A DNA stretch of 38,254 bases from Treponema sp. (GTDB lineage: Bacteria; Spirochaetota; Spirochaetia; Treponematales; Breznakiellaceae): positions 1 through 38,254 of the forward strand of contig JAITSE010000024.1 of the NCBI GenBank assembly GCA_031288005.1, in the 5' to 3' direction. A program made the translations under genes and the position numbers. The notes beneath the pieces are model-generated. The model worked only from the letters and a program-made list of their open reading frames with translations. It was not told the DNA's origin and ran no database searches. Below, piece after piece: positions 1 through 38,098 of this stretch (positions are counted from its first letter, which is position 1; each line of letters begins with the position of its first letter).

Positions 1-317
1 CCTCGGAGGACCGGCCCTGGGGAGAAGCCCCGTAGAGAAATGCGGGGAGTTTTGCGGCCCCCAAGGGGTTTTCAAGCGGCCCCCAAGGGCCGCTCTGGTC
101 CAACCCGCAAAACTCCAAGCGGACCGCAGGTCCGCAGGGTTCCCAAAACTCCATAGTCCTAAGGGCTGATTCCCGGAGAAAACCCCGGGGGAAAATGCGG
201 GGAGTTTTGCGAACCAGCGGCTGCACTGCGGCCCGTAAGGGCCGCGCTGTTCAAAAGTTCGCAAAACTCCTTAGCAATCAGGCTTTGCCTGATTGCAGGG
301 TTCCCAAAACTCCCCGG
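1..317. repeat. R1 palindromic mosaic repeat, two tandem units
   Basis: Two tandem units. Each opens with TGCGGGGAGTTTTGCG (41-56 and 195-210) and is answered by the inverted block CGCAAAACTCC (106-116 and 260-270), giving a large stem. A second palindrome follows each: 119-135 and 274-296, both placed between AAAACTCC-NN-AGC and GCAGGG. Each unit closes with GGGTTCCCAAAACTCC (137-152 and 298-313). The same blocks recur near 7570, 29750-29966 and 37760-38098. There is no credible coding content; an open frame at 195-545 simply runs through the palindromes. Confidence 0.85.
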
Positions 318-6081: not shown

Positions 6082-7340
6082 TTATAAACTCACATAGTCC
6101 TGTAAATATTTAACGATATAGTTGACACAGCTCTCCAGATCGTCCAGGTGTACCGTTCCCACAGCGGTATGAATATAGCGCATAGGGATACTGATCCCCC
6201 CGCAAGAACGCCTTCTCCCGCCAGGCTGTCGGACCATGCATCGGTACCGCCCCCCATGATCGCTTCCCGCTGAAAGGGGATGCCGTGCTTTTTTGCCAGG
6301 GCTATCATGTGGTTAGTCAGTTTCCGGGGAACATTGTTGCCGGTGGTCAATATCGTTTCCCAGTCGTAGAATTTAACCGCGAATCCGCCCCCCCATTTTC
6401 GCGGAACACTGACGGTACTCAATCCCCGGAGTACCGCCAGTCAGAGCGCCGTCTACCGCAAACATCAGTTCCGGTTTCCAGCGGCTGGCGATGGGACCGC
6501 CTGCCCGCATCCCCACTTCTTCCTGTACCGATCCGGCTATACAGACGCTTGGTTCAATGGAAAGGCCCCGCAGCCGGCGCAGGACTTCTACCATGACCGC
6601 GAGGCCCGCCCGGTCATCTACGGACTTGCCGGAATAATATTTGCCGCCGTTGAGAAAACGTCCGGTCCGGGCGAAGGTTCCGTAGTCCCCAATCTCTATT
6701 CCCAGGCTCCGGGTCTCGTCCGCGCTGCCGGTCCCAAAATCCACAAAGAGATCTTCGATCTTCAGGGCCTTCTCGTGGTCTTCCGCCGTCATGATATGGG
6801 CGGGCTTTGATCCGGTAACGCCGTACGCCTTTTTTCCTGTGGAGGTAATAAAGACCATGTCCTGATTCACCGCCCCCCGGTCGTCGTGGCAGCCCACGGG
6901 GAAGATACGGGCAAAACCCTCATCCTCGATATATTTGATGATAAAGCCGATCCGTCCATGTGGGCCGAAAACATGACCCGTTTGTCCCGGTTTTTCCCGT
7001 GACGGACAAAAAACTGATCCCCCAGAGGGTCTTCAAAGTATTCATCATAAAGCCCGGGGTCAGGCAGATCATATCCGTAATCTTCCGCGTTTCCGGCGGA
7101 AACTGCGTTTCCGAGGTAATCATTCACAGTGACGGTTAAACCTGAAATAAAGGTCCCCAAAAGGGCCTGCCGTTTGGTTTTGATAAAACGCCGGACGCGG
7201 AGACCGAATGTCATAACCACCCCGGGCATTGCCCCGCGGGACATAGTGAACAGGGTATGCTTGGCGGCAGTACGGACAATAAAGATGAGCGCCTCAGGCA
7301 AAAAAAACAGAACGCCGCGGGGTGACGTAAATTTTTTCAT
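6082..7340 (-). pseudogene. M42-family metallopeptidase, multiple frameshifts
   Basis: Read across three frames, the sequence gives a nearly complete M42 (glutamyl aminopeptidase/FrvX-like) enzyme. Signatures in order are SAHMD, IGFIIKYIEDEG, AYGVTGSKPAHI, GKSVDDRAG, SVQEEVGMRAGG, GGGTDAWSD and ISIPMRYIHTAVG. These include the metal ligands and the catalytic EE expected of di-metal aminopeptidases. The frame breaks after SAHMD near 6955 (one base lost), at a run of seven G on the coding strand near 6385 (one base too many), and at a run of six G near 6210 (one too few). The first 50 residues match poorly and may hide another break. It is a decaying gene, unless the G-run changes are sequencing errors or phase variation. 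Confidence 0.85.
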
Positions 7341-7465: not shown

Positions 7466-7709
7466 GGGGTCCAAGCCTGCGGCTTGCAGGCTTGGACCCC
7501 TCGGGGACTAGGTCCGGGTCCCCCGGGGACTTAGACCCCGCCCGTAGAACCAGCCCGGAGAAGCAATGCGGGGAGTTTTTTGCCGCCTATGATATCCACA
7601 GTTACAACGGGTCAAAAAACTCCAAGCAACCATCGGTTCTACGAACCGCGCAGCGGTTGCAGGGGACAGACCCTAAGAACAAGTGCAGTCTGCTTCGCAG
7701 ATTGCACTA
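7466..7709. repeat. R1 palindromic mosaic repeat at the 3' end of the PilZ gene
   Basis: It opens with a perfect hairpin: 15-base arms at 7466-7480 and 7486-7500, loop GGCTT. Then come the R1 blocks GCAATGCGGGGAGTTTT (7564-7580) and CAAAAAACTCC (7613-7623). A compound hairpin sits at 7624-7663 in the usual AGC...GCAGG frame. The last hairpin, 7683-7709, contains the stop codon of the PilZ gene. Confidence 0.8.
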
Positions 7710-9023
7710 GACGCAGCCCGTCAGAAACATAGCTTCGGCATCGGTGAAAGGCCGGCCATAGATGAATTCAAAAAAGAAACGGGTATCTTCCGGCCTCATG
7801 TCTAAAAAGCGGCAGCCAAAGTAGCCCTGAATATTATCTTTATACCGCCTGACAACCCGGGCCCGGGCGGAAATAGAGCGGACTGGGGTTTTAACCGTTA
7901 CCGAAAGCTCGCTTCCCGGGGCCAAAGCCTCCGATATTGCCGAAAGAGGATAGGCAAAGAGGAGGCCCGAAACGCTGATGTCAATAATCTTGCCCTCAAA
8001 GGGCGTATTTTTTATGCGCCCGGATTCAAAACAGCCGCTTTCCTTCATGGAAAACGACAAAACGCCGGCAAACTGGAAAACTCCGGCAATAACATCATAG
8101 CTGAAAGGCGGCCTCCCAAGCTCATTAATCCAGATATGTATGTATCCGATTATGTATTGATAAAATTGTATGGGCACCCAGGCGTCGGAGAAAATGCCTG
8201 AGTCGAATTTGGCCCGGATAAACCTGACCGCCGCGTCTTGGGGATCCGCGAAATCCGCGCTCGAGCTTTCAATGCAGCGGAGGAATATATCTTCCGTAAT
8301 GAGCAGTTTTTCGGGATAAGGATCGTTTTTTGGGAAGGACCCAAGTGTGGAAGGCAGATAGACGGCTTTTCCGGTTTCCGAGATCAGGCATTCTTCAAGG
8401 GAAGAGGGACGCAGATTCCCGAAGAGGATGAGCTGCCGTCCGCTTGAATAATCTTCGATCCATCTTGAGAACTGCGCGATAAGACCGTCCAGGTTCTTGA
8501 GGTCGTCATTCTTTACGTATTCCTGAAAGCGCGGCTCAATTTCCCCCTCGTCACTATGTATTTTGGGGTAGTCCAAAGAATAACGTTCGCCTGAAAAAAG
8601 GAACTGGGCCCTAATGTCTCGGGGGCCTTGAACCCGCAGATACGAGCGCCTCAGGTCCCTATAGAGGAATTCCGGCGCCTCGGCCTGAATGCGCCCGCTC
8701 AGGAAAGATTGAATCGTTATGGAAAAGGAGATCATCCGGCCCCGGAAGTTAAACATTAGATTCATCTTCCGCCCGGGCCTAAGTCCGGGAATGAGCCGGC
8801 CTGCTTTGAGATTAATCCGCTCTTTTACCGGTTTTTCCAGCGTCAAGGTATATTCGGTCCGGTTTTTCATGTATTTAACCGGAATTTGTTCGTCATATAC
8901 AACTTTGAGAAGGAAATCCTTCTCGATGCGTTTGATAGGAGTAGCCACTTTAAATATTTCCAGGGGAATAGGGACGCCGCACAAACCTGAAAGACCGCGC
9001 CGGTCTTGCAGTGGGGACTTCAA
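7707..9023 (-). CDS. YcgR/PilZ-like cyclic-di-GMP receptor candidate
   Basis: A 438-aa protein. The N-terminal half has a YcgR-like beta domain followed by RRSYLRV near residue 130, which resembles the RxxxR half of the PilZ site. The C-terminal part holds IDISVSGLLFAYP (D-x-S-x-x-G half) near residue 345, then the RARVVRRY and FGCRFLDM strands typical of PilZ. Such proteins bind cyclic di-GMP and in spirochaetes affect motility and adaptation. The two binding halves are about 200 residues apart, farther than in a compact PilZ domain, so they may not form one site. The start is uncertain: 9023 is a TTG without a clear ribosome site, and a GTG about 30 codons in is an alternative. The stop lies inside an R1 hairpin. 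Confidence 0.75.
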   Translation of the reverse strand: MKSPLQDRRGLSGLCGVPIPLEIFKVATPIKRIEKDFLLKVVYDEQIPVKYMKNRTEYTLTLEKPVKERINLKAGRLIPGLRPGRKMNLMFNFRGRMISFSITIQSFLSGRIQAEAPEFLYRDLRRSYLRVQGPRDIRAQFLFSGERYSLDYPKIHSDEGEIEPRFQEYVKNDDLKNLDGLIAQFSRWIEDYSSGRQLILFGNLRPSSLEECLISETGKAVYLPSTLGSFPKNDPYPEKLLITEDIFLRCIESSSADFADPQDAAVRFIRAKFDSGIFSDAWVPIQFYQYIIGYIHIWINELGRPPFSYDVIAGVFQFAGVLSFSMKESGCFESGRIKNTPFEGKIIDISVSGLLFAYPLSAISEALAPGSELSVTVKTPVRSISARARVVRRYKDNIQGYFGCRFLDMRPEDTRFFFEFIYGRPFTDAEAMFLTGCV

Positions 9024-11096: not shown

Positions 11097-11284
11097 CAAA
11101 GAAACGCCTCGCGCGCTCTTGTGAGGCTGTAGATCTCCGCAAACAGCCGGCGGAGCCGTGCGTCTTGACCGAATTACCAGAAAGATCAATGATCACCGTT
11201 AGAAAGCTGTAGACGGAGACATGGGGCTGGGTATGCTGATTAAGCATCTTTCCCAGATTCTAAGTCCAAAAAGAGAGAATTGCG

Positions 11285-11893
11285 ATGGAATCTATTATAT
11301 TGGCGTCCGGTTCGCTGCAAAGGCAGGAATATTTTCGGCTAATGGGGCTGCCTTTTAACATTATGCCCTCCCGCATTGATGAAGACTATAATATGGATTT
11401 GATCCCCCGGAAAATAACCGAGGAGTTGGCGGTGCGGAAAGTCAAAAATATCATCGAACTCCTCCGCGGGCGGATGCCGGCATGGATATGCGGGGCCGAT
11501 ACTGCCATTTCCATAGACGGGAAAATTTTTGGGAAGCCTTCGTCCAGGGAAGACGCTAAAAATATGCTGAATATTTTCCAGGACCGGGATCACGAAGTGG
11601 TTACTGCGGTGGCCCTTTTTAACGGCAGGGAAAAATCAATTGACTGCCGCTCCGTGGTCAGTACCGTAACCTTCAGTCCCATCTCGGATGCCGAAATTGA
11701 GTGGTACCTCAATACCGGGGAATGGCAGGGCGTTGCGGGGGCCTATAAGATACAGGGACTGGCTTCCTGCTTTGTTTCCCGTATCACGGGATCGTATAGC
11801 TCCATTGTAGGCTTGCCAATGCATGAATTTTATGCCATGCTTCGGGAAAATGGGTATCCTTACGGAATACCGGACGGAGAACCTACCCGTTAA
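11285..11893 (+). CDS. maf: Maf-family nucleoside triphosphate pyrophosphatase
   Basis: A 202-aa protein of Maf length. Family proteins hydrolyse non-canonical or modified nucleoside triphosphates to the monophosphate and pyrophosphate. Visible motifs are the N-terminal ILASGSLQRQE (usually ASxSPRR, so a variant P-loop-like segment), CGADTAISIDGKIFGKP with the catalytic-region Asp, GEWQGVAGAYKIQG and GSYSSIVGLP. Whether it prefers dTTP/UTP or 7-methyl-GTP cannot be told. It has a run of A/G bases before the ATG (AAAGAGAGAATTGCG). It lies about 240 bases upstream of rpsB on the same strand and could be co-transcribed. Confidence 0.9.
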   Translation: MESIILASGSLQRQEYFRLMGLPFNIMPSRIDEDYNMDLIPRKITEELAVRKVKNIIELLRGRMPAWICGADTAISIDGKIFGKPSSREDAKNMLNIFQDRDHEVVTAVALFNGREKSIDCRSVVSTVTFSPISDAEIEWYLNTGEWQGVAGAYKIQGLASCFVSRITGSYSSIVGLPMHEFYAMLRENGYPYGIPDGEPTR

Positions 11894-12135
11894 TATCGGG
11901 AATTTGCCGGCGTCCAGCGCGTTTAACGCGGGAAGGCAGCCGGACGGTTTTCGGCAGATATCGCCTGCTTAACGGGCGTTTCTGTTATTTTCCACCTTCC
12001 TTTTGGAGGGCGAGATACAGGGAAGGCGCCGGCATGACGCAATTTCCAATGAACGATGCCCCTTAACCCGGTTTCAAAGCCGGAGGGCCGTCATAATATG
12101 TGGAAACGTGATCTGGAGCGGCGCGGGAGGAAAAC
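11894..12135 (+). promoter_or_regulatory. Leader region of rpsB-tsf operon (nothing certain)
   Basis: These 242 bases hold no convincing gene. Weak inverted repeats (for example GCGCG...CGCG near 11920) and a short hairpin before TTTCTGTTATTTT at about 11970 could be a weak terminator for maf or part of a structured rpsB leader, as many bacteria have. A CATAAT at 12093-12098 is a possible -10 element without a good -35 partner. Confidence 0.3.
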
Positions 12136-13032
12136 ATGGCTGTAGTTACCATGAAAAGCCTGCTAGAATCGGGGGTGCATTTTGGTCACCAGGTAAAACG
12201 CTGGGACCCGCGGATGAAGAAGTATATCTTCGCCGAAAGAAATGGCATCCATATCATTGATCTGCAAAAGACTATTCAGTCGATTAAAGACGCCTACGAA
12301 GCGGTCAGAAAAAGCGTCTCGGCAGGCAAAAACGTGTTGTTTGTCGGGACAAAAAAGCAGGCTCAGCAGGCAATTCAAAAAGAAGCCGAACGGTGCGGTA
12401 TGTTTTATGTCAACAGCCGATGGCTCGGCGGTATGCTCACAAATTTCGCGACCATCAAAAAGTCACTTCTCCGCCTTAAAAAACTGGAAAAAATGGAGGT
12501 GGACGGGACCTTTGAGAATTTGACGAAAAAAGAAATCGCTTCTCTGGGCAAAGAGCGGGCAAAACTCCAGAAAAACCTTGGAGGAATTAAAGAGATGAAA
12601 GAGCTTCCGGGTATTATCTTCATCGTTGATACCCGAAAAGAGGCTATAGCCGTGGCGGAAGCCAAACGGCAAGGCATCCCTATGGTCGCTGTGGTGGATA
12701 CCAACTGCAATCCAGAGGGAATAAATTACCCCATTCCCGGGAACGACGACGCTATTCGGGCCATTACCCTGTTCACCCAGATCATCGCTAACGCGGTAAT
12801 CGAGGCGGACAACGAGGCGGGGCTTAAGATCATCGAGACCCTGGGAGACGAGAGTGAAAACCTGGAAGAAATTTTGACCGATGTCTCCATTAAGGAAGAA
12901 GATAGGGAGATTGACATCGAATCCTATTCTTCCGGTACGGCCCCTGTAGAAGAAAGGAAAGCGGCGGAAGCCGCTGCGGGAGATGACGAAGAGCTTCCGG
13001 TAGATGTTGATAAGGTTTACGACAAGGAATAA
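12136..13032 (+). CDS. rpsB: 30S ribosomal protein S2
   Basis: A 298-aa protein of the small ribosomal subunit, needed for binding of S1 and for initiation. Family sequence runs from [20 protein letters not shown] through [11 protein letters not shown] and [11 protein letters not shown] to [20 protein letters not shown]2 is usually 230-260 aa; here about 45 extra C-terminal residues form an acidic Glu/Asp-rich tail, common in spirochaete S2 proteins as far as I recall. GGGAGG lies just upstream of the ATG. It leads a tight cluster with tsf, frr, uppS, cdsA, dxr and rseP. Confidence 0.98.
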
Positions 13033-13059
13033 ATAAACCCCCTTTAAGGAGTCAGGCAA

Positions 13060-13911
13060 ATGGGAATCAGTGCAGAGGATGTTAAAAAGCTCCGGGAAAA
13101 GACCGGAGCGGGTATGATGGAATGTAAGAACGCCTTGGTGGAAACCGGCGGTGATTTTGCCGGGGCGGAAAAACTCTTAAAGGAAAAGGGGCTTGCGGCG
13201 GTGGAAAAACGTTCAGGCCGGGCGACCAACGAGGGCAAGATTTTTGTAAAGATAACGGACAATGCGGCGGCTTTGGTGGAATTGGCATCGGAAACGGATT
13301 TTGTGGCCAGAAATCCTGATTTCATCACCCTGGGAGAGGCCATCGCGGACCGGGTTCTGGAAAAAGGTTATACCGAACCAAACGACGAACTTGCCGGCAT
13401 GGTAACGGAGTTGGCGACTAAGATCCGGGAAAATATGGGCCTTAAGCGTGTCAAACTGGTTGCCGCGGGAGCCGGCGAGTATCTCGTTAAATATATACAT
13501 GGGGACGGCGCCATAGGGGTAGTGGTAAAATTGAGCGCCGGTAATGGGGAGATCCTTCAAAAAGAGGAATTTAAAGCCCTGGCTTTTAACCTTGCCCTCC
13601 ACATCGCGGCCTTTAATCCCGCGGCCCTGGACCGGAATCATATAGATGCGGCGTTCCTTAAAGAGCAGGAGGAGATCTTCCGCAAGCAGCTTGAAGGAGA
13701 TGAAAAACTCCAGGGAAAACCCGCCAATGTGATAGACAATATTCTCAAGGGGAAAGTTAATAAATATCTGTCTGACATTTGTCTTATGGAACAAGGGTAT
13801 GTAAAGGACGAAAAATTCTCCGTGTCTCAGGTTCTTGCCGACACGGGGAAACAGCTTGGGGCGGCAATAAATGTGGTTGACTATGTGTACTTTAAAGTAG
13901 GGGATAGTTAA
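13060..13911 (+). CDS. tsf: Translation elongation factor Ts
   Basis: A 283-aa EF-Ts, the nucleotide exchange factor that releases GDP from EF-Tu. The N-terminal UBA-like domain ([19 protein letters not shown]) and the signature [11 protein letters not shown] are both present, followed by two core domains of normal length. The ATG follows AAGGAG and lies 27 bases after rpsB. Its stop overlaps the frr start (TAATG), implying translational coupling. Confidence 0.98.
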
Positions 13912-14465
13912 TGCATAGCGTCATTTCTTCAGCCGAAGAACGGATGAAAAAAACCGTCGCTAATCTGAAAGACGGTTTTGCTTCTCTTAGAACCGGACGA
14001 GCGTCGGCTTCATTATTCGATAAGGTGAAGGTTGATTACTATGGGGATAAATCGCCTCTCAACCAGGTGGCGAATATTTCTATCCCCGAAGCCCGGCTTA
14101 TCGTGATACAGCCCTGGGACAAGGGGCTTATCGGGGAAATTGAGAAGGCCATACGGTCTTCGGAGCTTTCCCTTAATCCCAGCAATGACGGAAAGGTTAT
14201 CAGGATAGCCATTCCGCCGCTGACGGAGGAACGCCGGAAAGAGCTTGCCAAGGTCGCCAAAAACCAGGCGGAACAGAGCCGGGTGGCGGTGCGGAACATA
14301 CGGCGGGATGGTAACGATGAACTAAAGAAAATCCTCAAGGCCGGAGAACTTACGGAAGATGAGGAAAGCCGGAATTCTGAAGAACTGCAAAAGCTAACCG
14401 ATTCTTATATCGGGAAGATCAATCAGGTTCTGGAAGAGAAAGAAAAAGAAATAATGGAAGATTGA
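13911..14465 (+). CDS. frr: Ribosome recycling factor
   Basis: A 184-aa protein of exact family length. With EF-G it splits the post-termination ribosome. The [19 protein letters not shown] segment, the Q-PWDK motif and [14 protein letters not shown] are all typical, the last in the long helical domain. Start and stop overlap the neighbouring genes by one base each (TAATG, TGATG). Confidence 0.98.
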
Positions 14466-15202
14466 TGTCCGCTAAATACCTTGCCGGCAAAAAGCCCGTT
14501 CTGGAAGAAGGTCCCGGTCCTGTCCATATCGGTGTTATTATGGATGGTAATGGCCGATGGGCGGTACGGCGCGGGCAAATCCGTACTCAGGGGCATCTTG
14601 AGGGGCTCAAGACGGCAAAAAGAATCGTCAAGGCCGCAAGCGATATGGGCGTCGCCTACCTGACTCTCTATGTTTTCTCTACCGAAAATTGGAAGCGCAC
14701 CGCTGAAGAGGTGGGATTCATCATGGGGCTTGTCAAGCAGTACCTGGCGGCGGAACTGGACTTCTTCAGGCAGAACCGCATCAAAATACGCCACGCCGGG
14801 GATGCCCAGGGGCTTCCGCCTGACATCGCTGGGGAAATTCGGGAAGTATGCGACGATACCCGGGATTTTACGGGGCTCCAGGTCATCCTGGCCCTCAATT
14901 ACGGGGGCAGGGACGAGATAATGCGGGGGATACGGCGGCTTTTGGAGACGCCTCCTCCAGGCGGAGAGCTTACGGAAGCCTCCTTCCGGCGCTGTTTGGA
15001 CAATCCCGATATTCCCGATCCGGACCTTGTCATCAGGACTGCCGGGGAAATGCGTATCAGTAACTTTCTTCTCTGGGAAGGGGCCTATTCGGAATACTGG
15101 GTTTCGGAAAAACTGTGGCCCGATTTTACGGAAGAAGACTTGGCTTCGGCCATAGAATGGTTCCAGAGCCGGGAACGACGGTATGGCGGCGTAAAGGGAT
15201 GA
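14465..15202 (+). CDS. uppS: Isoprenyl transferase (undecaprenyl diphosphate synthase)
   Basis: A 245-aa cis-prenyltransferase that condenses isopentenyl diphosphate units onto farnesyl diphosphate to make the C55 lipid carrier of peptidoglycan synthesis. The motifs IMDGNGRWAV (catalytic Asp), LTLYVFSTENWKR, LALNYGGRDEI and LVIRTAGEMRISNFLLW are in order. The ATG at 14465 overlaps the frr stop (TGATG); a TTG one codon earlier is also in frame but less likely. dxr, three genes on, belongs to the pathway supplying its isoprenoid substrate. Confidence 0.97.
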   Translation: MSAKYLAGKKPVLEEGPGPVHIGVIMDGNGRWAVRRGQIRTQGHLEGLKTAKRIVKAASDMGVAYLTLYVFSTENWKRTAEEVGFIMGLVKQYLAAELDFFRQNRIKIRHAGDAQGLPPDIAGEIREVCDDTRDFTGLQVILALNYGGRDEIMRGIRRLLETPPPGGELTEASFRRCLDNPDIPDPDLVIRTAGEMRISNFLLWEGAYSEYWVSEKLWPDFTEEDLASAIEWFQSRERRYGGVKG

Positions 15203-16053
15203 AAAAACTAATCCAGAGGCTTCTTTTATTTATCATTACCCTGCCTCTTGTCGTGGTTATTGTGCTGTTTCTACCTTACCGCAATTATCTGGCAGCCAAC
15301 GTCATCGTAGTTATTCTTAGCGCCCTGGGAGCCGGCGAGTTCGCCGATATGTTGAACAGAAAAAGCATAACCCTCTCCAAAGGAGAAGCCCGCATACTCG
15401 GAGCGCTGGGTCCCGCCGTCATGACGCTGGCGGTAAGTTTCAGTCTGCAATTTTATGTCTTTGCCGGCGCTATTATGGCCGCTTTCATCTGGCTGCTCCT
15501 CTCCCGTGTTTTTACTTCACCGGACAAGTTTGGATATTCCCTAGATCGCATCATATCGGGCTTTGCTATCATGATCTATCCGGGTTTATTCATGCTCTGG
15601 ATCATCCTAATGGCCCGTCTTTTCCATGCGTCTCTGGTTATCCTGGTGTTCTTTTTTATCGTGGTAGCTAATGATTCCGTGGCTTGGGCTGCGGGTATGC
15701 TCTTTGGGAAAAACAACCGGGGGATCATACCTGCCAGCCCCAACAAAAGCGTCGCGGGCTTTATCGGCGGTTTTGCCGGTTCCATTCTGGTAGGCATTAG
15801 CGCTACCCGCTTCTTTCCATCCGTGTTCATATCAAATTTAATACCATCCCCCTGGGCCGGCGTCATTCTTGGTTTCATTTCAGCGGCGGCCGCTTCCATG
15901 GGAGACCTGGCTGAATCTATAATGAAACGAAGTTCCGCAATCAAGGATTCGGGAGAGATTGTTCCAGGCAGAGGCGGGGTACTGGATTCCATTGATTCTA
16001 TGGCAATGGCGGCGCCGGTATACTATGGACTTTATCGGGCTCTTTTTATGTAA
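15199..16053 (+). CDS. cdsA: Phosphatidate cytidylyltransferase (CDP-diacylglycerol synthase)
   Basis: A 284-aa membrane enzyme that joins CTP and phosphatidate to CDP-diacylglycerol, the branch point for phospholipids. It has about eight hydrophobic segments. The C-terminal signature is present as SIMKRSSAIKDSGEIVPG then RGGVLDSID. Compared with the usual PGHGG-x-x-DR form, His is Arg and the Arg after Asp is Ser, so it is a variant. The start at the ATGA overlapping uppS is chosen over an upstream in-frame start because the hydrophobic N-terminus begins here. Confidence 0.93.
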   Translation: MKKLIQRLLLFIITLPLVVVIVLFLPYRNYLAANVIVVILSALGAGEFADMLNRKSITLSKGEARILGALGPAVMTLAVSFSLQFYVFAGAIMAAFIWLLLSRVFTSPDKFGYSLDRIISGFAIMIYPGLFMLWIILMARLFHASLVILVFFFIVVANDSVAWAAGMLFGKNNRGIIPASPNKSVAGFIGGFAGSILVGISATRFFPSVFISNLIPSPWAGVILGFISAAAASMGDLAESIMKRSSAIKDSGEIVPGRGGVLDSIDSMAMAAPVYYGLYRALFM

Positions 16054-16086
16054 GCTGATTTTGAACTAAGCTACGGAGTTTTGGAT

Positions 16087-17277
16087 TTGAGTAAAAGAAT
16101 GAAGAAGCGGGTAGCGGTTCTTGGGGCCACCGGCTCCATCGGCAAGAACGCCATTGATATTTTACGGGAAGATAAAGAACGTTTCGATGTTGTCCTTCTA
16201 TCAAGCCATAGCGATATTTCCGGTCTTCTTAATCTCTCCCGGGAATTCCCCGCGGCGGCCCTGGCTGTAAGCGACCCGGATGCGGCGTCAAAGGTTTCGG
16301 CGTTGCCAAAAGGCGTATATACCGGAAATGCGGGGCTGCTCCGGGCCATTGGGGAGATCTCTCCCGACATGGCTCTAAACGGCATAGCCGGAGCCGCAGG
16401 CTTGGAGCCATCCTTGACGGCCCTTAAAGCGGGGGCGGACCTTGCCTTGGCAAACAAGGAAACCATTGTTATGGCCGCGCCCCTGGTTTTCGCCCTAGCG
16501 AAAAAGAACGGCCGTCGCGTTTTGCCTGTGGACTCGGAGCATCACGCCATTTCGAGCTTGCTGGAAGCCCACGGCAGGGAAAATATTGCGGAACTCATCC
16601 TTACCGCATCGGGCGGGCCTTTCAGGAAGCGAAAACGAGAAGACTTCAACAAGATAACAGTGGAAGAAGCCCTCGCCCACCCAACATGGAATATGGGGCC
16701 CAAAATAACTCTTGATTCGGCAACCCTGGCAAACAAGGGATTGGAAGTAATTGAGGCCGTAGGGCTTTTTAATATGCCCACGGAAAAGATATCTGTTGTC
16801 ATACATCCTCAAAGCATCGTTCATTCTATGGCGCGCTTGAGAGACGGAGCGGTATATGCCCAGCTTTCCAGGCCCGATATGCGACTTCCCATTCACAGCG
16901 CCCTGTATTATCCTAAATGCACGCCCTGCTCCTGGGGACGCCTGGATTTCTCAGAGGGCCTGACCTTGGACTTTGAACCACCCGATTTCGAGGCCTTTCC
17001 CATGCTTTCCCTGGCCTATGAAGCCGCAAAACAGGGGGGGCTTTACCCGACAGCATATAACGCGGCCAATGAGTCGGCGACGGAGGCTTTTTTCGCAAAA
17101 AAGGCTGGCTTTCTTGATATACCCCGCATTGTTGAGTATGTCTTAAATAGAGACTGGAATACAGCCGGGAATCTTGAGAACGCCGAAGCTCTGCAAATAA
17201 TACTGGAAGCCGATAAAAAAGCCAGAAAGACTGCTAATACATTTATTTCGGAGGAAAATCTATGCTTATGCTCATAG
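16087..17277 (+). CDS. dxr: 1-deoxy-D-xylulose 5-phosphate reductoisomerase
   Basis: Second enzyme of the MEP isoprenoid pathway: it rearranges and reduces DXP to MEP with NADPH. The NADPH-binding GATGSIG, LANKETIVMA, PVDSEHHAI (metal-binding Asp and Glu), HPTWNMGPKITLDSATLANK and SRPDMRLPIHSA are all intact. About 396 aa, normal length. The start is uncertain: TTG at 16087 lies eight bases after GGAG, TTG at 16081 is too close, and ATG at 16099 is too far. The end overlaps rseP by 16 bases. Confidence 0.96.
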   Translation: MSKRMKKRVAVLGATGSIGKNAIDILREDKERFDVVLLSSHSDISGLLNLSREFPAAALAVSDPDAASKVSALPKGVYTGNAGLLRAIGEISPDMALNGIAGAAGLEPSLTALKAGADLALANKETIVMAAPLVFALAKKNGRRVLPVDSEHHAISSLLEAHGRENIAELILTASGGPFRKRKREDFNKITVEEALAHPTWNMGPKITLDSATLANKGLEVIEAVGLFNMPTEKISVVIHPQSIVHSMARLRDGAVYAQLSRPDMRLPIHSALYYPKCTPCSWGRLDFSEGLTLDFEPPDFEAFPMLSLAYEAAKQGGLYPTAYNAANESATEAFFAKKAGFLDIPRIVEYVLNRDWNTAGNLENAEALQIILEADKKARKTANTFISEENLCLCS

Positions 17278-18623
17278 CTAAAATTATTTTAGGTCTATTG
17301 GGTCTTGGAATAGTGGTATTCATCCACGAATTGGGACATTTCCTTGCCGCCCGACTGGTGGGTATCGATGTGGAAGTCTTCTCTCTAGGGTGGGGGAATC
17401 CCATCTTCAAAAAGAAGGTGGGTAATGTGGAATACCGTCTCGGCATATTCCCCATAGGGGGCTATTGCAAAATGAAAGGGGAAAACGAATTCCAGGAAAC
17501 CCATGAAAAACAAAAACAGGAAATTCCCCCGGTAAAGGGAACCTACTACGGGACAGGACCGCTGCGACGTATAATTGTATCCTTTGCCGGCCCCCTTTTT
17601 AACTTTATCTTCGCTGTCCTTGTGCTGGCAGTCATCTGGAGCGTCGGTTTTGAAATACACACTCTGGATAACCGCATAGTCCTGGCATCGGATATAAATC
17701 CGGGGGAACGTTATCCTGCTGGCGAAGCGGGGCTTATAACCGGAGACCGGATTGTAAAAATTGGGAATACCGCTATAAATAGCTACCGGGATATACAAGA
17801 AACCATAACAACAAACCCTGAGAAAAATCTTGCGATAACAGTGGAACGGGACGGCGCCGTCCTGGAATTCAAGGTACGGCCCCAGCTTGATAGAAATACC
17901 GGGGCGGGAAAAATCGGGGTTTACTACTGGGCCGACCCGGTGGTAGAGGCGGTTAGCCCCGAAAGCCCTGCCGCTATTGCGGGTATAGAGGTGGGGGATA
18001 GGATACTAAAGGCAAATGGCCAGGATATTCCCTACACGGTAGCCCTGCTCGGCATATTACGGGATCAGCCGTCGGTATTATCTGTGGAATACGAACGTAA
18101 CGGCGGAATAAAAAAGGCGGATATTGTCCTCTCCTATACCGGCAAAGAAGCGGATATAGGTATAGCATATCAAACCCTCCGGTACCATACCCCTTCCTTT
18201 TCATTTTTTGGCGCCCTGGCTCAAGGCGCCAAAGAGGCATGGAAGACCTTCGCCGTTTCCCTCAAAAGTCTTGCCTTGCTTTTCAGGGGTATAGACCTGA
18301 CACAAGCTGTTTCAGGACCCATCCGTATTACTTACATGGTAGGTGATGTGGCTGCCGAAGGCTTCGGACAGAGCATGGGGACAGGTCTAAGTTCCACCGC
18401 CAACTTCCTGGCTCTTATTTCTATTGCCCTCTGCATCATGAACCTCCTCCCACTGCCGGTTCTTGACGGCGGCATGATCCTGCTTTTTATTATCGAGGCT
18501 GTTAAGGGCCGCTCCTTGCGTCCCAAAACCATCTACGCATTCCAGGCCGTCGGGGTAGTCCTAATCTTTGGCCTGATGATCTTCGCTGTCTTCGGGGACA
18601 TACTGTTCCTGGTCCGGCGCTAA
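17262..18623 (+). CDS. rseP: Site-2 zinc metalloprotease RseP/RasP family
   Basis: A 453-aa intramembrane protease of the M50 family. The zinc site HELGH is at residues 22-26 in the first membrane segment, and the third ligand lies in LPVLDGGMIL near residue 400. Two PDZ-like domains lie between: GLITGDRIVKIGN and AGIEVGDRILKANG. Family members cut membrane-bound anti-sigma factors or signal-peptide remnants; the substrate here is unknown and no anti-sigma gene is nearby. The ATG follows GGAGG and lies inside the end of dxr. Confidence 0.95.
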   Translation: MLMLIAKIILGLLGLGIVVFIHELGHFLAARLVGIDVEVFSLGWGNPIFKKKVGNVEYRLGIFPIGGYCKMKGENEFQETHEKQKQEIPPVKGTYYGTGPLRRIIVSFAGPLFNFIFAVLVLAVIWSVGFEIHTLDNRIVLASDINPGERYPAGEAGLITGDRIVKIGNTAINSYRDIQETITTNPEKNLAITVERDGAVLEFKVRPQLDRNTGAGKIGVYYWADPVVEAVSPESPAAIAGIEVGDRILKANGQDIPYTVALLGILRDQPSVLSVEYERNGGIKKADIVLSYTGKEADIGIAYQTLRYHTPSFSFFGALAQGAKEAWKTFAVSLKSLALLFRGIDLTQAVSGPIRITYMVGDVAAEGFGQSMGTGLSSTANFLALISIALCIMNLLPLPVLDGGMILLFIIEAVKGRSLRPKTIYAFQAVGVVLIFGLMIFAVFGDILFLVRR

Positions 18624-18666
18624 AAGAGGCGGCCATGAGACGAAACCTGTCGCTCTGGGTAATACA

Positions 18667-20655
18667 ATGAAAGGACGCTCACCCGTGTTCGCGACGGGGT
18701 TTCTCGTCGGCCTTCTTTTGGCTGTGCAGGCGGGGATGCCGGCCCCATCCCGGCATATCTATCCTTCCACTGCGGGAAAGCATACCGGGGCGGTAAACGC
18801 TGTGGCCTATGACGGGGAAGGCCGGGTCTTTAGCGCAGGGGCCGACGGCTTTTTGGGAATCTGGAACATCCGGGATGGAAGAGCGGAAGACCGGTTCCAA
18901 CTGAGCCAATACCCTCTTACCTCTATAGCCCTGCGTCCAGGGAAAACACAGCTTGCTCTTGTCGAAAGCGACGGCCTAGGGATCTGGCGTATTTCAGCCT
19001 GGGACTACAAAAAAAAACAACGTCTTTTTACCCTCAGCTTCAGGGATCCGCTTTTATACATCACTTACTCCGCGGGGGGAAATTTTATCATCCTGGCCAG
19101 GAGTGCCATAGCGGGAGTCGTATTCCTTCATCCGGAAACCGGCGGCCTCCTGCGCTCGCCTGAGAACTTTTCCTCGCCTGTCTCCTTTGCCGCCACAGGT
19201 AAATCCGAGCGGACCATGATAAGCTATTCTCCTGTCGGAACCCTCTCCTATCGGGAAATTGAGTCCGGAGAAGAAATCCGCCGTTTTACGGCGCCTCCAA
19301 ACATCATTACGCCTATTCTCTTCGGGAACAACATCTTCTTTGGCGGCTTTAGCAATGAGGCTCTTGTAATTCTTGATGCGGTTTCAGGAAATGAACTCAT
19401 CAGAGATACGGATGTCCCTAGAGGCCTCCTCTACCCCGCAGGCCGAGAAAGGGCTGAATTCATCTGCTTGACCCTGGAAACCCGCCACCGTATATTACGC
19501 TACGGGATCAGTCACACGAGAAAACTTGAAGCCCTGGGCGGGAGAGATGTCGCTTCAGAGGGAGTAAACGCATCTCCCCTTCCTGTAATTACGAGCGCCG
19601 TCATAACCGGAGACGCCATTGTTATGGGAACTGCCGAAGGAGGCATCTGGTCCCTGAGCGAAGACAAATATGCACAAATTTTCGCTTTTACGGAACAACT
19701 CGCTGTGCTGGAAGCCGGCGCTTCAGAAAAACATCTCGGCATCATCACTACCGGCGGCTTTTGTGGATTTATCCCCCTGGACTTAAGCGATTTTTCCGAA
19801 ACTGAACCCATAAGTCTTAAAAGGTCCGGAGCTTATACCCGCATCGAAGCGGACCCGTCCTCAGACGCGTTTCTTTTTTGGCAGGCTGAAGACAGTCAAA
19901 CGGACCCACCGGTACGGATATACCCGGATGGCAGCCGCTTTGCCCTGGACAAAATTCCCAGGCAATTCTCCATGCGCTCCGCCATTATCCTGGACGGCAT
20001 TGCTCTGTTTCTGGATTCGGCAGGAAACATAACGGCAGCCTCTCTGGACACCGGGGATATACTGTTCTCCTTCTTCGCAGCCGGCGCAATTGACGCCGCT
20101 TTTCTTGACAGACGGAACATCGTTATAGGTCGCAGCGCCGTTATGGGAAACACTCCCTTCCTCAAGGTGGACATCACAAACGGTGAAACCGTGCCTCTTG
20201 CCTACCCCGCCGATATAGGCGCCCGCATCTACCGGGGTGAAAGCGGCATCCTCTACGCCGCGGCAGTAAGCAGAGGACCCGCCGGCGCCAGCACCAACAT
20301 CATCCTCCTTGATCCATCCAACCCGGCAGGTTCAATACAACTCGCTAAATATCAGGGTGAGGATACGGCTTTCAGTATTACAGAAAGCGACGGCGTACCG
20401 GCATCCACTTTGGGCGAAGACGGGGCGGCCATCTACAATGAAGTTGGCGCAATCCATTTTGAACGAAGCGCCGGTCTACCCCGGCGCCTCATCAGCAGCA
20501 GCAAACGATTTATCACCGTGGACGCCGAAGGCAGCATCGTCTGGCATGACAACAAAACCGGGGAATTGCTTGCCATCCTGCGTTTCTATGCCGAAGAATG
20601 GATGTTGGAAAAGAAAGATGGCGTAATAAAAAGAGGCCCCCTCCTCAAGGACTAA
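18667..20655 (+). CDS. Exported WD40-like beta-propeller protein
   Basis: A 662-aa protein. The N-terminus MKGRSPVFATGF followed by a hydrophobic stretch to QAGMPAPS is a probable signal peptide. The first 110 residues hold a clear WD40-like blade (HTGAVNAVAYDGEGRVFSAGADG, LGIWNI), and similar but diverged blades appear to continue along most of the protein (GLGIWRIS, GGIWSL). It is the last gene of the rpsB-rseP run, 43 bases after rseP, and may be a periplasmic scaffold. I recall a protein of unknown function at this place in T. pallidum. No enzyme motif seen. Confidence 0.75.
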   Translation: MKGRSPVFATGFLVGLLLAVQAGMPAPSRHIYPSTAGKHTGAVNAVAYDGEGRVFSAGADGFLGIWNIRDGRAEDRFQLSQYPLTSIALRPGKTQLALVESDGLGIWRISAWDYKKKQRLFTLSFRDPLLYITYSAGGNFIILARSAIAGVVFLHPETGGLLRSPENFSSPVSFAATGKSERTMISYSPVGTLSYREIESGEEIRRFTAPPNIITPILFGNNIFFGGFSNEALVILDAVSGNELIRDTDVPRGLLYPAGRERAEFICLTLETRHRILRYGISHTRKLEALGGRDVASEGVNASPLPVITSAVITGDAIVMGTAEGGIWSLSEDKYAQIFAFTEQLAVLEAGASEKHLGIITTGGFCGFIPLDLSDFSETEPISLKRSGAYTRIEADPSSDAFLFWQAEDSQTDPPVRIYPDGSRFALDKIPRQFSMRSAIILDGIALFLDSAGNITAASLDTGDILFSFFAAGAIDAAFLDRRNIVIGRSAVMGNTPFLKVDITNGETVPLAYPADIGARIYRGESGILYAAAVSRGPAGASTNIILLDPSNPAGSIQLAKYQGEDTAFSITESDGVPASTLGEDGAAIYNEVGAIHFERSAGLPRRLISSSKRFITVDAEGSIVWHDNKTGELLAILRFYAEEWMLEKKDGVIKRGPLLKD

Positions 20656-29727: not shown

Positions 29728-29966
29728 GCGACCCTTCGGGTCGCTTGGAGTGGGTTCCCAAAACTCCCCGCACTAGTTCTACAGGCTGTTTTGCAGGCCG
29801 ATCGGGGACCTCCCGGAGCCGTGCGTCCCGTTACACGGGCCTCGAAGAATCATTGCGTGGAGTTTTTTGCCCCCAAAATGTTCACAGTCATAAACAGTTC
29901 AAGAGACCGCAGGTCTCAAAACTCCAAGCGGCCCGCAGGGACGCAGGGACCTCCCCGAGTTTTGGG
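29728..29966. repeat. R1 palindromic mosaic repeat between galM and the pyrophosphatase gene
   Basis: It starts with hairpin GCGACCC-TTC-GGGTCGC and then GGGTTCCCAAAACTCC (29752-29767). TGCGTGGAGTTTTTTG (29854-29869), AAAATGTTCACAG, the hairpin GAGACCGCAGGTCTC and AAAACTCCAAGCGGCCCGC follow, ending in GAGTTTTGGG. The AAAATGTTCACAG block reappears inverted near 37860. The repeat fills the space upstream of two divergent genes, so their promoters must lie in or beside it. Confidence 0.8.
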
Positions 29967-37418: not shown

Positions 37419-37581
37419 ATTCGTATTGAGGGTTTCATACCCAGGGAAACTTGTTTCCAGAACCCGCTTGCGCGGGGGAGTCTCTGCGGCGGGGTATGAA
37501 ATCCTAATATAAATACCTTATGAGAACAACCATGCCCCGCCAAACTGAAGGTTTGAGATCTGCGGCGGGGTATGGTTGATT
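37419..37581. repeat. R2 dispersed palindromic repeat, copy B
   Basis: Same ends and inner sequence as 2560-2778, without the 55-base insert. Module 1 is framed by GGGTTTCATACC and GGTATGAAATCC, module 2 by AACCATGCCCCGCC and GGCGGGGTATGGTT. Compared with copy A, a stem pair has changed from A-T to C-G on both sides. Confidence 0.85.
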
Positions 37582-37740: not shown

Positions 37741-38098
37741 CAATCTTGAGACCCTTCGGGTCTCTTGGAGTTTTGGGAACCGCGGAAACGCGGAAACATC
37801 GGAAACTTCGTTTCCGCGTTTCCGAAGTTTCCGATGGTTCCCTTGAACCCTTTGCTGCTGTGAACATTTTTACGGGTCAAAAAACTCCACGCACTTCTCC
37901 CCGGGGCTGGTTTCACGGGGAATCAGCCCGGGGAAAATACGGGGGGTTTTGCGGCCCCTGCAATCAGGCAAAGCTGAGACCGGAGGTCTCAAGATTGCTT
38001 AGGGGGTTTCAAGCGGCCCTTGGGGGCCGCTCTGGTCCAACCCGCAAAACTCCTAAGCAAACCGGCGGAGCCGGTTTGCAGGTCCCTTAGCGGTCTCA
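37741..38098. repeat. R1 palindromic mosaic repeat, longest copy
   Basis: From the left: hairpin GAGACCC-TTC-GGGTCTC; GGAGTTTTGGGAACC; a GGAAAC-rich inverted repeat; the block GGTCAAAAAACTCCACGCA; a CCCCGGGGCTGGTTTC / GAATCAGCCCGGGG palindrome; and GGGGGGTTTTGCGG. An 18-bp hairpin lies at 38013-38030, followed by CCCGCAAAACTCC (38041-38053) and a hairpin at 38055-38082 in the AGC...GCAGG frame. It ends at the stop codon of the last partial gene. Confidence 0.85.

Follow-up and report, generated by a model that had tools for sequence, protein, structure and literature searches.

The dRS3 repeat of Neisseria is a single palindrome with a fixed outer part and a variable centre. Excerpts of the REP survey PMC3733652 place it among the CGTC-1 repeats, and in the same excerpts an unpaired GTAG or CGTC tag is what defines the REP super-families; these consist of many short intergenic palindromes with short loops, which occur in clusters, lie mostly downstream of coding regions and include subfamilies with complementary stem changes or with different stems. 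These excerpts name Spirochaetes for the CGTC repeats without mention of Treponema, and those of a later survey (PMC12306157) list other Spirochaetota, again without mention of Treponema. Nearest in form to the repeat described here would be the mitochondrial double-hairpin elements of fungi and sponges, which the excerpted text of PMC2800124 presents as side-by-side hairpins that are dispersed and suspected to be mobile; they reside in organelle DNA, and the likeness is one of form only. A literature search, with most subscription journals outside its coverage, found no publication on the present double-hairpin repeat.

Double hairpins in the Treponema window

We analysed a stretch of 38,254 bases, hereafter the window, which carries four pairs of hairpins, H1 and H2, together with two degenerate pairs:

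46..116, plus strand: H1 of copy 1, GGAGTTTTGCGG ... CCGCAAAACTCC, with two inner hairpins
119..135, plus strand: H2 of copy 1, GCGGACC-gca-GGTCCGC
201..270, plus strand: H1 of copy 2, GGAGTTTTGCGAAC ... GTTCGCAAAACTCC
274..296, plus strand: H2 of copy 2, GCAATCAGGC-ttt-GCCTGATTGC
7572..7623, plus strand: H1 of copy 3, GGAGTTTTTTG ... CAAAAAACTCC, with an inner stem unlike that of copies 1 and 2 on both arms
7626..7660, plus strand: compound H2 of copy 3, GCAACC/GGTTGC around CGGTTC-tac-GAACCG
29859..29944, plus strand: degenerate copy 5, GGAGTTTTTTG ... CTCAAAACTCC-AA-GCGGCCC-gca-GGGACGC, H2 imperfect
37748..37888, minus strand: degenerate copy 6, GGAGTTTTTTG ... CCCAAAACTCC-AA-GAGACCC-gaa-GGGTCTC
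37943..38053, plus strand: H1 of copy 4, GGGGTTTTGCGG ... CCGCAAAACTCC
38057..38079, plus strand: H2 of copy 4, GCAAACCGGC-gga-GCCGGTTTGC

A first-pass annotation of this DNA had described four places at which a conserved flank, AAAACTCC-NN-AGC, is followed by a palindrome of changing sequence and then by GCAGG. All four palindromes exist (the H2s of copies 1 to 4), while the description of the flanks needed correction. AAAACTCC is the 3' arm of the larger hairpin H1 (GGAGTTT...AAACTCC), more than a mere flank, and its 5' counterpart, GGAGTTTT (in copy 4 GGGGTTTT), lies 44-103 bases upstream, starting at 46, 201, 7572 and 37943. The H1 3' arm is followed by a spacer of 2-3 bases and then by H2, the stem of which varies; the annotated flank is exact at 263 and 38046, whereas the sites at 109 and 7616 have a spacer with one base less. 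As for GCAGG, the GC closes the H2 stem, and AGG follows in the four window copies but is absent from the listed copies of other genomes. Folded as single-stranded DNA, the H2s of copies 1-4 gave z-scores of -4.8, -6.2, -2.4 and -5.7, and the complete H1-spacer-H2 folds gave -6.3, -7.4, -3.2 and -8.0. The H1 arms also vary on both sides (TTTTGCGG/CCGCAAAA, TTTTGCGAAC/GTTCGCAAAA, TTTTTTG/CAAAAAA). Inside the H1 of copy 4 there is an inverted piece that resembles the copy 2 H2 and is broken up by a GAGACC/GGTCTC hairpin, a type that is also present at 29903 and 37748. Two of the H2s face stop codons of minus-strand reading frames: in copy 3, 46 nt separate the outer end of H2 from the stop of a PilZ gene (7707-9023), and in copy 4 the distance is 16 nt, to a stop codon (38096-38098) whose frame is open at the contig end. 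A search of the window against Rfam 15 gave no match above the gathering score.

When up to two mismatches were allowed, the flank pattern matched the window 22 times against 14.2 expected, a number reached in 2 of 100 shuffles, so the flank alone is weak evidence, and the strength of the case rests on the paired structure and on the relatives. A third exact match to AAAACTCC-NN-AGC lies at 16070 on the minus strand, just before the DXP reductoisomerase reading frame (which begins at 16081), with no GGAGTTT in its preceding 40 bases. The strict pattern including GCAGG was found in none of 10 near genomes, AAAACTCCNNAGC in none of the first 80 loci, and when the 195 family genomes were searched with the DNA of one window copy, the only two hits (32-35 bp) fell on a hairpin adjoining the element. 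Since these searches found almost nothing, the full consensus of the first-pass annotation does not travel between genomes, while the H1 core does.

Several other features of the window were observed. A Tsp45I-like restriction gene fragment (639-971, covering only profile positions 1-108 of 260) lies beside an N6/N4 DNA methylase gene (1084-2277), and both are bracketed by two imperfect inverted-repeat pairs (418-465/2352-2399 and 348-377/2442-2471), as if 348-2471 were a mobile restriction-modification unit. Near both contig ends, at 2560-2769 and 37419-37571, neighbouring direct repeats adjoin the hairpin clusters; their lengths are 74 and 82 nt and their identities 96 and 94%. At 6373-7340, one reading frame matches M42 peptidase (profile 44-204 of 292) and adjoins a frame without family assignment, and the two are possibly a split gene.

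Distribution among relatives and pairing of the second hairpin

To survey the relatives we used a wider pattern, GGAGTTT-N(5-20)-AAACTCC-NNN-GC, with the reversed pattern as control. It matched 734 times in 100 of the 195 family genomes against 12 matches for the control (partly summed by hand), with 0 to 81 copies per genome; 13 genomes held at least 10 matches and 95 held none. The narrower GCAAAACTCCNNAGC matched 50 of the 195, no genome having more than 30 copies. Sampling was extended to 390 genomes across the order, of which the 221 not yet covered gave 17 matches in 13 genomes against 5 for the control (hand-counted), so any excess outside the family is slight at most and the repeat is essentially a family trait, unevenly spread. 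The genomes nearest to the window are poor in it (1, 3 and 0 matches to the wider pattern in G001, G002 and G003), and the complete genome of Breznakiella homolactica has 7 matches. The EF-Ts proteins closest to that of the window (92, 89 and 88% identity) come from MAGs named Treponema sp., which we take, from the MAG series and the literature, to be of termite gut origin.

For comparison we assembled 151 copies from 18 genomes, counting identical copies once and excluding H1 gaps above 55, hence any window copy; loci L083-L112 are outside this count. All genomes except one were sampled through GCAAAACTCCNNAGC, so their copies are not a random draw. The exception, G063, was represented by 425 kb (its first 60 contigs) chosen independently of the element. 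Chance or artefact as the source of the pattern was ruled out by the reversed controls and by random positions: in the compared loci, a hairpin of the same stringency lay within 0-4 nt of only 624 of 20000 random positions.

The plan of the repeat is uniform. H1 has the fixed base GGAGTTT/AAACTCC with a variable inner stem and loop, the inner stem being perfect in 116 of 128 cases, and about 3 nt further on comes H2, with GC usually at or beside its base; its stem is free in sequence, mostly 9-14 bp long and usually capped by a triloop. The spacer was 3 nt in 117 of the 151 copies, the loop a triloop in 134 and H2 perfect in 132; H2 arms start with GC in 111 and have GC among the first three positions in 132. 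The fixed base and variable interior of H1 resemble dRS3, likened here by description only, from which the repeat differs in that dRS3 is a single palindrome. The R boxes of integron attC sites read GTTRRRY and RYYYAAC, and neither motif was found in any of the 151 H1s.

The observation in the first-pass annotation that form is conserved and sequence is not was borne out in the relatives, where the 151 copies carry 94 distinct H2 arms and covariation goes far beyond that of shuffled columns. Among 27 distinct 10-bp triloop stems, the Watson-Crick fraction was 0.993 (shuffled mean 0.498, maximum 0.567), and changes on both sides occupied 105 of 270 cells against a shuffled mean of 26.9, the 11-bp stems behaving alike. 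Only 19 of 1617 H2 stem pairs are not Watson-Crick (6 GT, 4 AC and 9 other), with no clear excess of G.T over A.C; wobble is not clearly favoured, which, small as these numbers are, speaks against selection on RNA alone. The near-perfect pairing is partly ascertained, because the search favours good stems and misses copies with many mismatches. Against pure ascertainment counts the G063 sample, in which H2 follows 32 of 74 oriented H1 sites (about 37 palindromes) and is perfect in 31 of the 32. The copies of the relatives do not share one hairpin sequence: distinct H2 arms numbered 27 among 37 copies in G078, 15 among 32 in G063 and 13 among 17 in G194, while G120 is fairly uniform, with 6 among 19. 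Much of the variation within a genome looks like compensated drift (GCTGAAGCCGC / GCTGAAAACCGC / GCTGAAAGCC) and not like swaps.

A further suggestion, that H2 is a replaceable module, held in part: the stems do vary, but H2 hairpins are almost never found away from H1. Stems starting with GGAGTT were the commonest (33) among 175 perfect hairpins of the G063 sample, and the commonest gap between neighbouring hairpins was exactly 3 nt (20 of the 36 gaps of up to 10). The H2 arm GCTCAACGC recurs 8 times within this genome. Within its 425 kb, 33 of 34 hairpins with an H2 arm had an H1 end within 12 nt, and the remaining one had a damaged H1 end; H2 is on this ground an integral part of the repeat, not a free cassette. 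H2 class in G063 was tied to the 3-nt spacer (reached by none of 2000 shuffles), its tie to H1 class not being significant (permutation 0.10); in G078 it was tied to both, and in G120 and G194 no significant tie to either was found. By eye, the intergenic mosaics of G063 (L233-L292) contain further modules around H1-H2, namely CGCCAGCGGG, CCGCTACGCGG and an arm ACAACAAGGGCGT before H1.

Genomic position and polarity

Gene positions were called with our own hexamer script and are approximate. All 32 listed copies of G063 are intergenic, in DNA of which 84.6% is coding (this set differs slightly from the 32 with H2, one copy lacking H2 being in and one out). An initial count of gene contexts took in 129 copies, including two window copies; 12 were inside predicted genes and 32 at contig edges. 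Of the 97 placed copies of this pattern-selected set, in which 81% of the DNA is coding, 85 were intergenic. Among the 151 compared copies, 10 are contained in predicted genes. A cruder call, by which 69 of 123 copies lay inside open frames of at least 100 codons, was replaced, those frames being taken as spurious. Exclusive location at gene 3' ends was ruled out, as all four gene arrangements are occupied (28, 24, 20 and 13 of 85). Long or divergent intergenic regions hold many of the copies, and those of G063 are mostly far from genes, within larger mosaics.

Where copies do approach genes they are polar, in the order gene 3' end, H2, 3 nt, H1. Within 30 nt, the H2 side faces 3' ends of genes 29 times and 5' ends 5 times, and the H1 side 9 and 2 times (binomial p of 4e-5 for 29/34 and 0.0017 for 29/38, kinship of copies ignored). 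Out of 35 gene 3' ends that the H2 side faces within 60 nt, 10 come from G194, and when this genome was left out the counts within 30 nt were 20 against 5 on the H2 side and 7 against 2 on the H1 side (p of 0.004 for 20/25 and 0.019 for 20/27, kinship again ignored). The preference is a post hoc finding, since it became visible only after distances and tRNAs had been added. H2 begins 0-2 nt behind tRNA-Ser (G192, G111), tRNA-Ala (G147) and tRNA-Thr (G078), and in G194 several stop codons lie inside H2, including those of the methionine sulfoxide reductase and glycine reductase component B genes. In G192 (L150, L151), incomplete tRNA-Ser 3' ends, each about 17 bp long and adjoining an H1-H2 copy, are repeated at distances of about 208 and about 240 bp (lengths by eye), an arrangement reminiscent of the duplicated attachment sites that a very small integrative element would have.

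One locus allowed occupied and empty sites to be compared. In G194, the gene that we take to encode glycine reductase component B, followed by that for protein A, ends in ...NKMRAN, and the gap to the next gene, which holds the element, is 150 nt. At the orthologous sites of G195, G149, G147 and G151, the gaps are 57, 72, 55 and 82 nt without the element, and the gene ends read ...NRMSAREQ, NRISATEF, NKITAREL and NRITVKEF, respectively. Gain of the element in G194 would be the simplest reading of this single locus. In L304, the reading frame behind component B meets TGA after ...STECFV, and the G194 copy (L174) reads TTTGTCTGA there, presumably the selenocysteine codon expected in protein A. 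For a further occupied site no orthologue was matched to the gene end, and for another only many related receptor genes were found. An empty counterpart of window copy 5 was sought in eight near genomes, none of which had both flanking genes on one stretch; the synteny of L001-L003 with the window covers 11273-20636 only, a part without any copy.

Probable mobility, proposed stem renewal and alternative readings

Taken together, these results show that the repeat is real, widespread and a polar double hairpin, and its mobility is likely. On balance we favour the reading that it is a short, dispersed, non-autonomous double-hairpin repeat which inserts near gene 3' ends and whose stems are rewritten by template switching. 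Copies would spread as mobile DNA, a trans-acting factor would read the geometry of the hairpins and not their stem sequence, and integration would take place at or near gene 3' ends; the hairpin nested in the H1 of copy 4 agrees with this reading. The renewal of the stems, and the upkeep of their perfect pairing, would happen in the DNA itself. Template switching at the replication fork is the most likely means, a process that could alter both arms in one step and may invert the loop. Given the G063 mosaics far from genes, the moving unit may be larger than the H1-H2 pair.

Two observations fit template switching: G.T is not in clear excess, and loops occur in both orientations. Permutation within genomes predicted 12.3 cases of reverse-complement loops on identical arms, and 19 were observed (p 0.019), spread over 6 of 15 arm groups; the test is modest and its pairs are not independent. 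In yeast, according to the excerpted text of PMC8604942, template switching inverts short spacers between perfect arms, 3 bp long in several cases, and excerpts of PMC8794818 present it as a maker and keeper of perfect stems. The likeness lies in arms made identical in one step and in short spacers inverted, as between the copies here; as excerpted, both sources describe the process in RNA genes and yeast coding DNA, not as the renewal of stems in a repeat family. Template switching probably keeps the present stems perfect at the DNA level, a favoured but unproven explanation.

The polarity could alternatively mean a function at RNA 3' ends, and the chief rival, although we judge it unlikely, is accordingly a functional RNA element at gene 3' ends (a terminator, an RNase III site or a stabiliser of mRNA or tRNA trailers) selected for its RNA structure. 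The 29 against 5 gene ends facing H2 and its abutment to tRNA ends in four genomes agree with this reading, as does one copy (G147, L198) that is followed by a run of T, and excerpts on the intergenic repeats of Borrelia plasmids report compensatory stem changes that were interpreted as RNA conservation (PMC2674063). However, a terminator T-tract (T5 within 12 nt, in the direction of the gene) followed H1 in 1 and H2 in none of the 151 copies, G.U is hardly commoner than A.C, many copies occupy intergenic regions that are long or divergent, and copy number runs from 0 to 81 among genomes of one family.

Identity with ordinary REP/REPIN elements, mobilised by a transposase of the Y1 (RAYT-type) family, is improbable, even though the copies are intergenic, palindromic, multicopy, mosaic and often clustered. 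The unpaired tag is absent: in up to 6 nt before H1, the spacer and up to 6 nt after H2 of the 151 copies, GTAG occurred 0, CTAC 3, CGTC 2 and GACG 4 times. Y1_Tnp (PF01797), the one transposase family compared with copy number, per genome, was present in 5 of the 13 genomes with at least 10 copies and in 114 of the 182 others (Spearman -0.11, p 0.12). This shows no association, with the caveat that draft genomes may lower the counts by missing genes. In the present repeat two unlike hairpins regularly stand 3 nt apart and the H2 stem is nearly free in most genomes, and no clear G.T excess was seen, in contrast to the GT pairing often reported for GTAG repeats in excerpts of PMC3733652. Like BIMEs, the copies are intergenic and dispersed, with several palindromic modules per cluster, but the hairpin sequence is not conserved among the copies of G078, G063 or G194, G120 being more uniform. 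The contrast with REP and BIME elements drawn in the first-pass annotation is fair in degree, while the complementary stem changes of REP subfamilies, in the same excerpts (PMC3733652), make it less than absolute.

The remaining two alternatives appear very improbable. According to the first, H2 is a pre-existing host hairpin, e.g. a terminator, that is recognised by its shape, and H1 alone is mobile. Group IIC introns choose terminator hairpins in this way, and H2 is indeed variable, often at gene ends and at a fixed distance from H1, but this reading is weakened by the 33 of 34 H2-arm hairpins that adjoin H1, by the recurrence of arms within a genome and by the lack of such a hairpin (by eye) at the four empty gene ends. 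According to the second, equally doubtful, the repeat forms the terminus or attachment site of an integrative element linked to tRNAs, as the tRNA-Ser repeats of G192 might suggest, yet most copies lie away from tRNAs and no such duplication was seen at the glycine reductase site.

Returning to the mobile double hairpin, a more specific version is put forward tentatively, as possible but still doubtful: the repeat would be recognised and moved by its two-hairpin geometry and not by sequence, with polar insertion at gene 3' ends (across stop codons and behind tRNAs), and its stems would be continually rewritten, on both arms, by template switching, giving genome-specific dialects of one shape. 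If this is true, recognition of shape would be separated from recognition of sequence, unlike in REP-like repeats, which are usually known by a tag or sequence. Template switching can also be studied in a natural experiment, provided by the many copies with perfect, rewritten stems, and insertion at 3' ends becomes directly testable through the polar placement beside tRNAs and gene ends.
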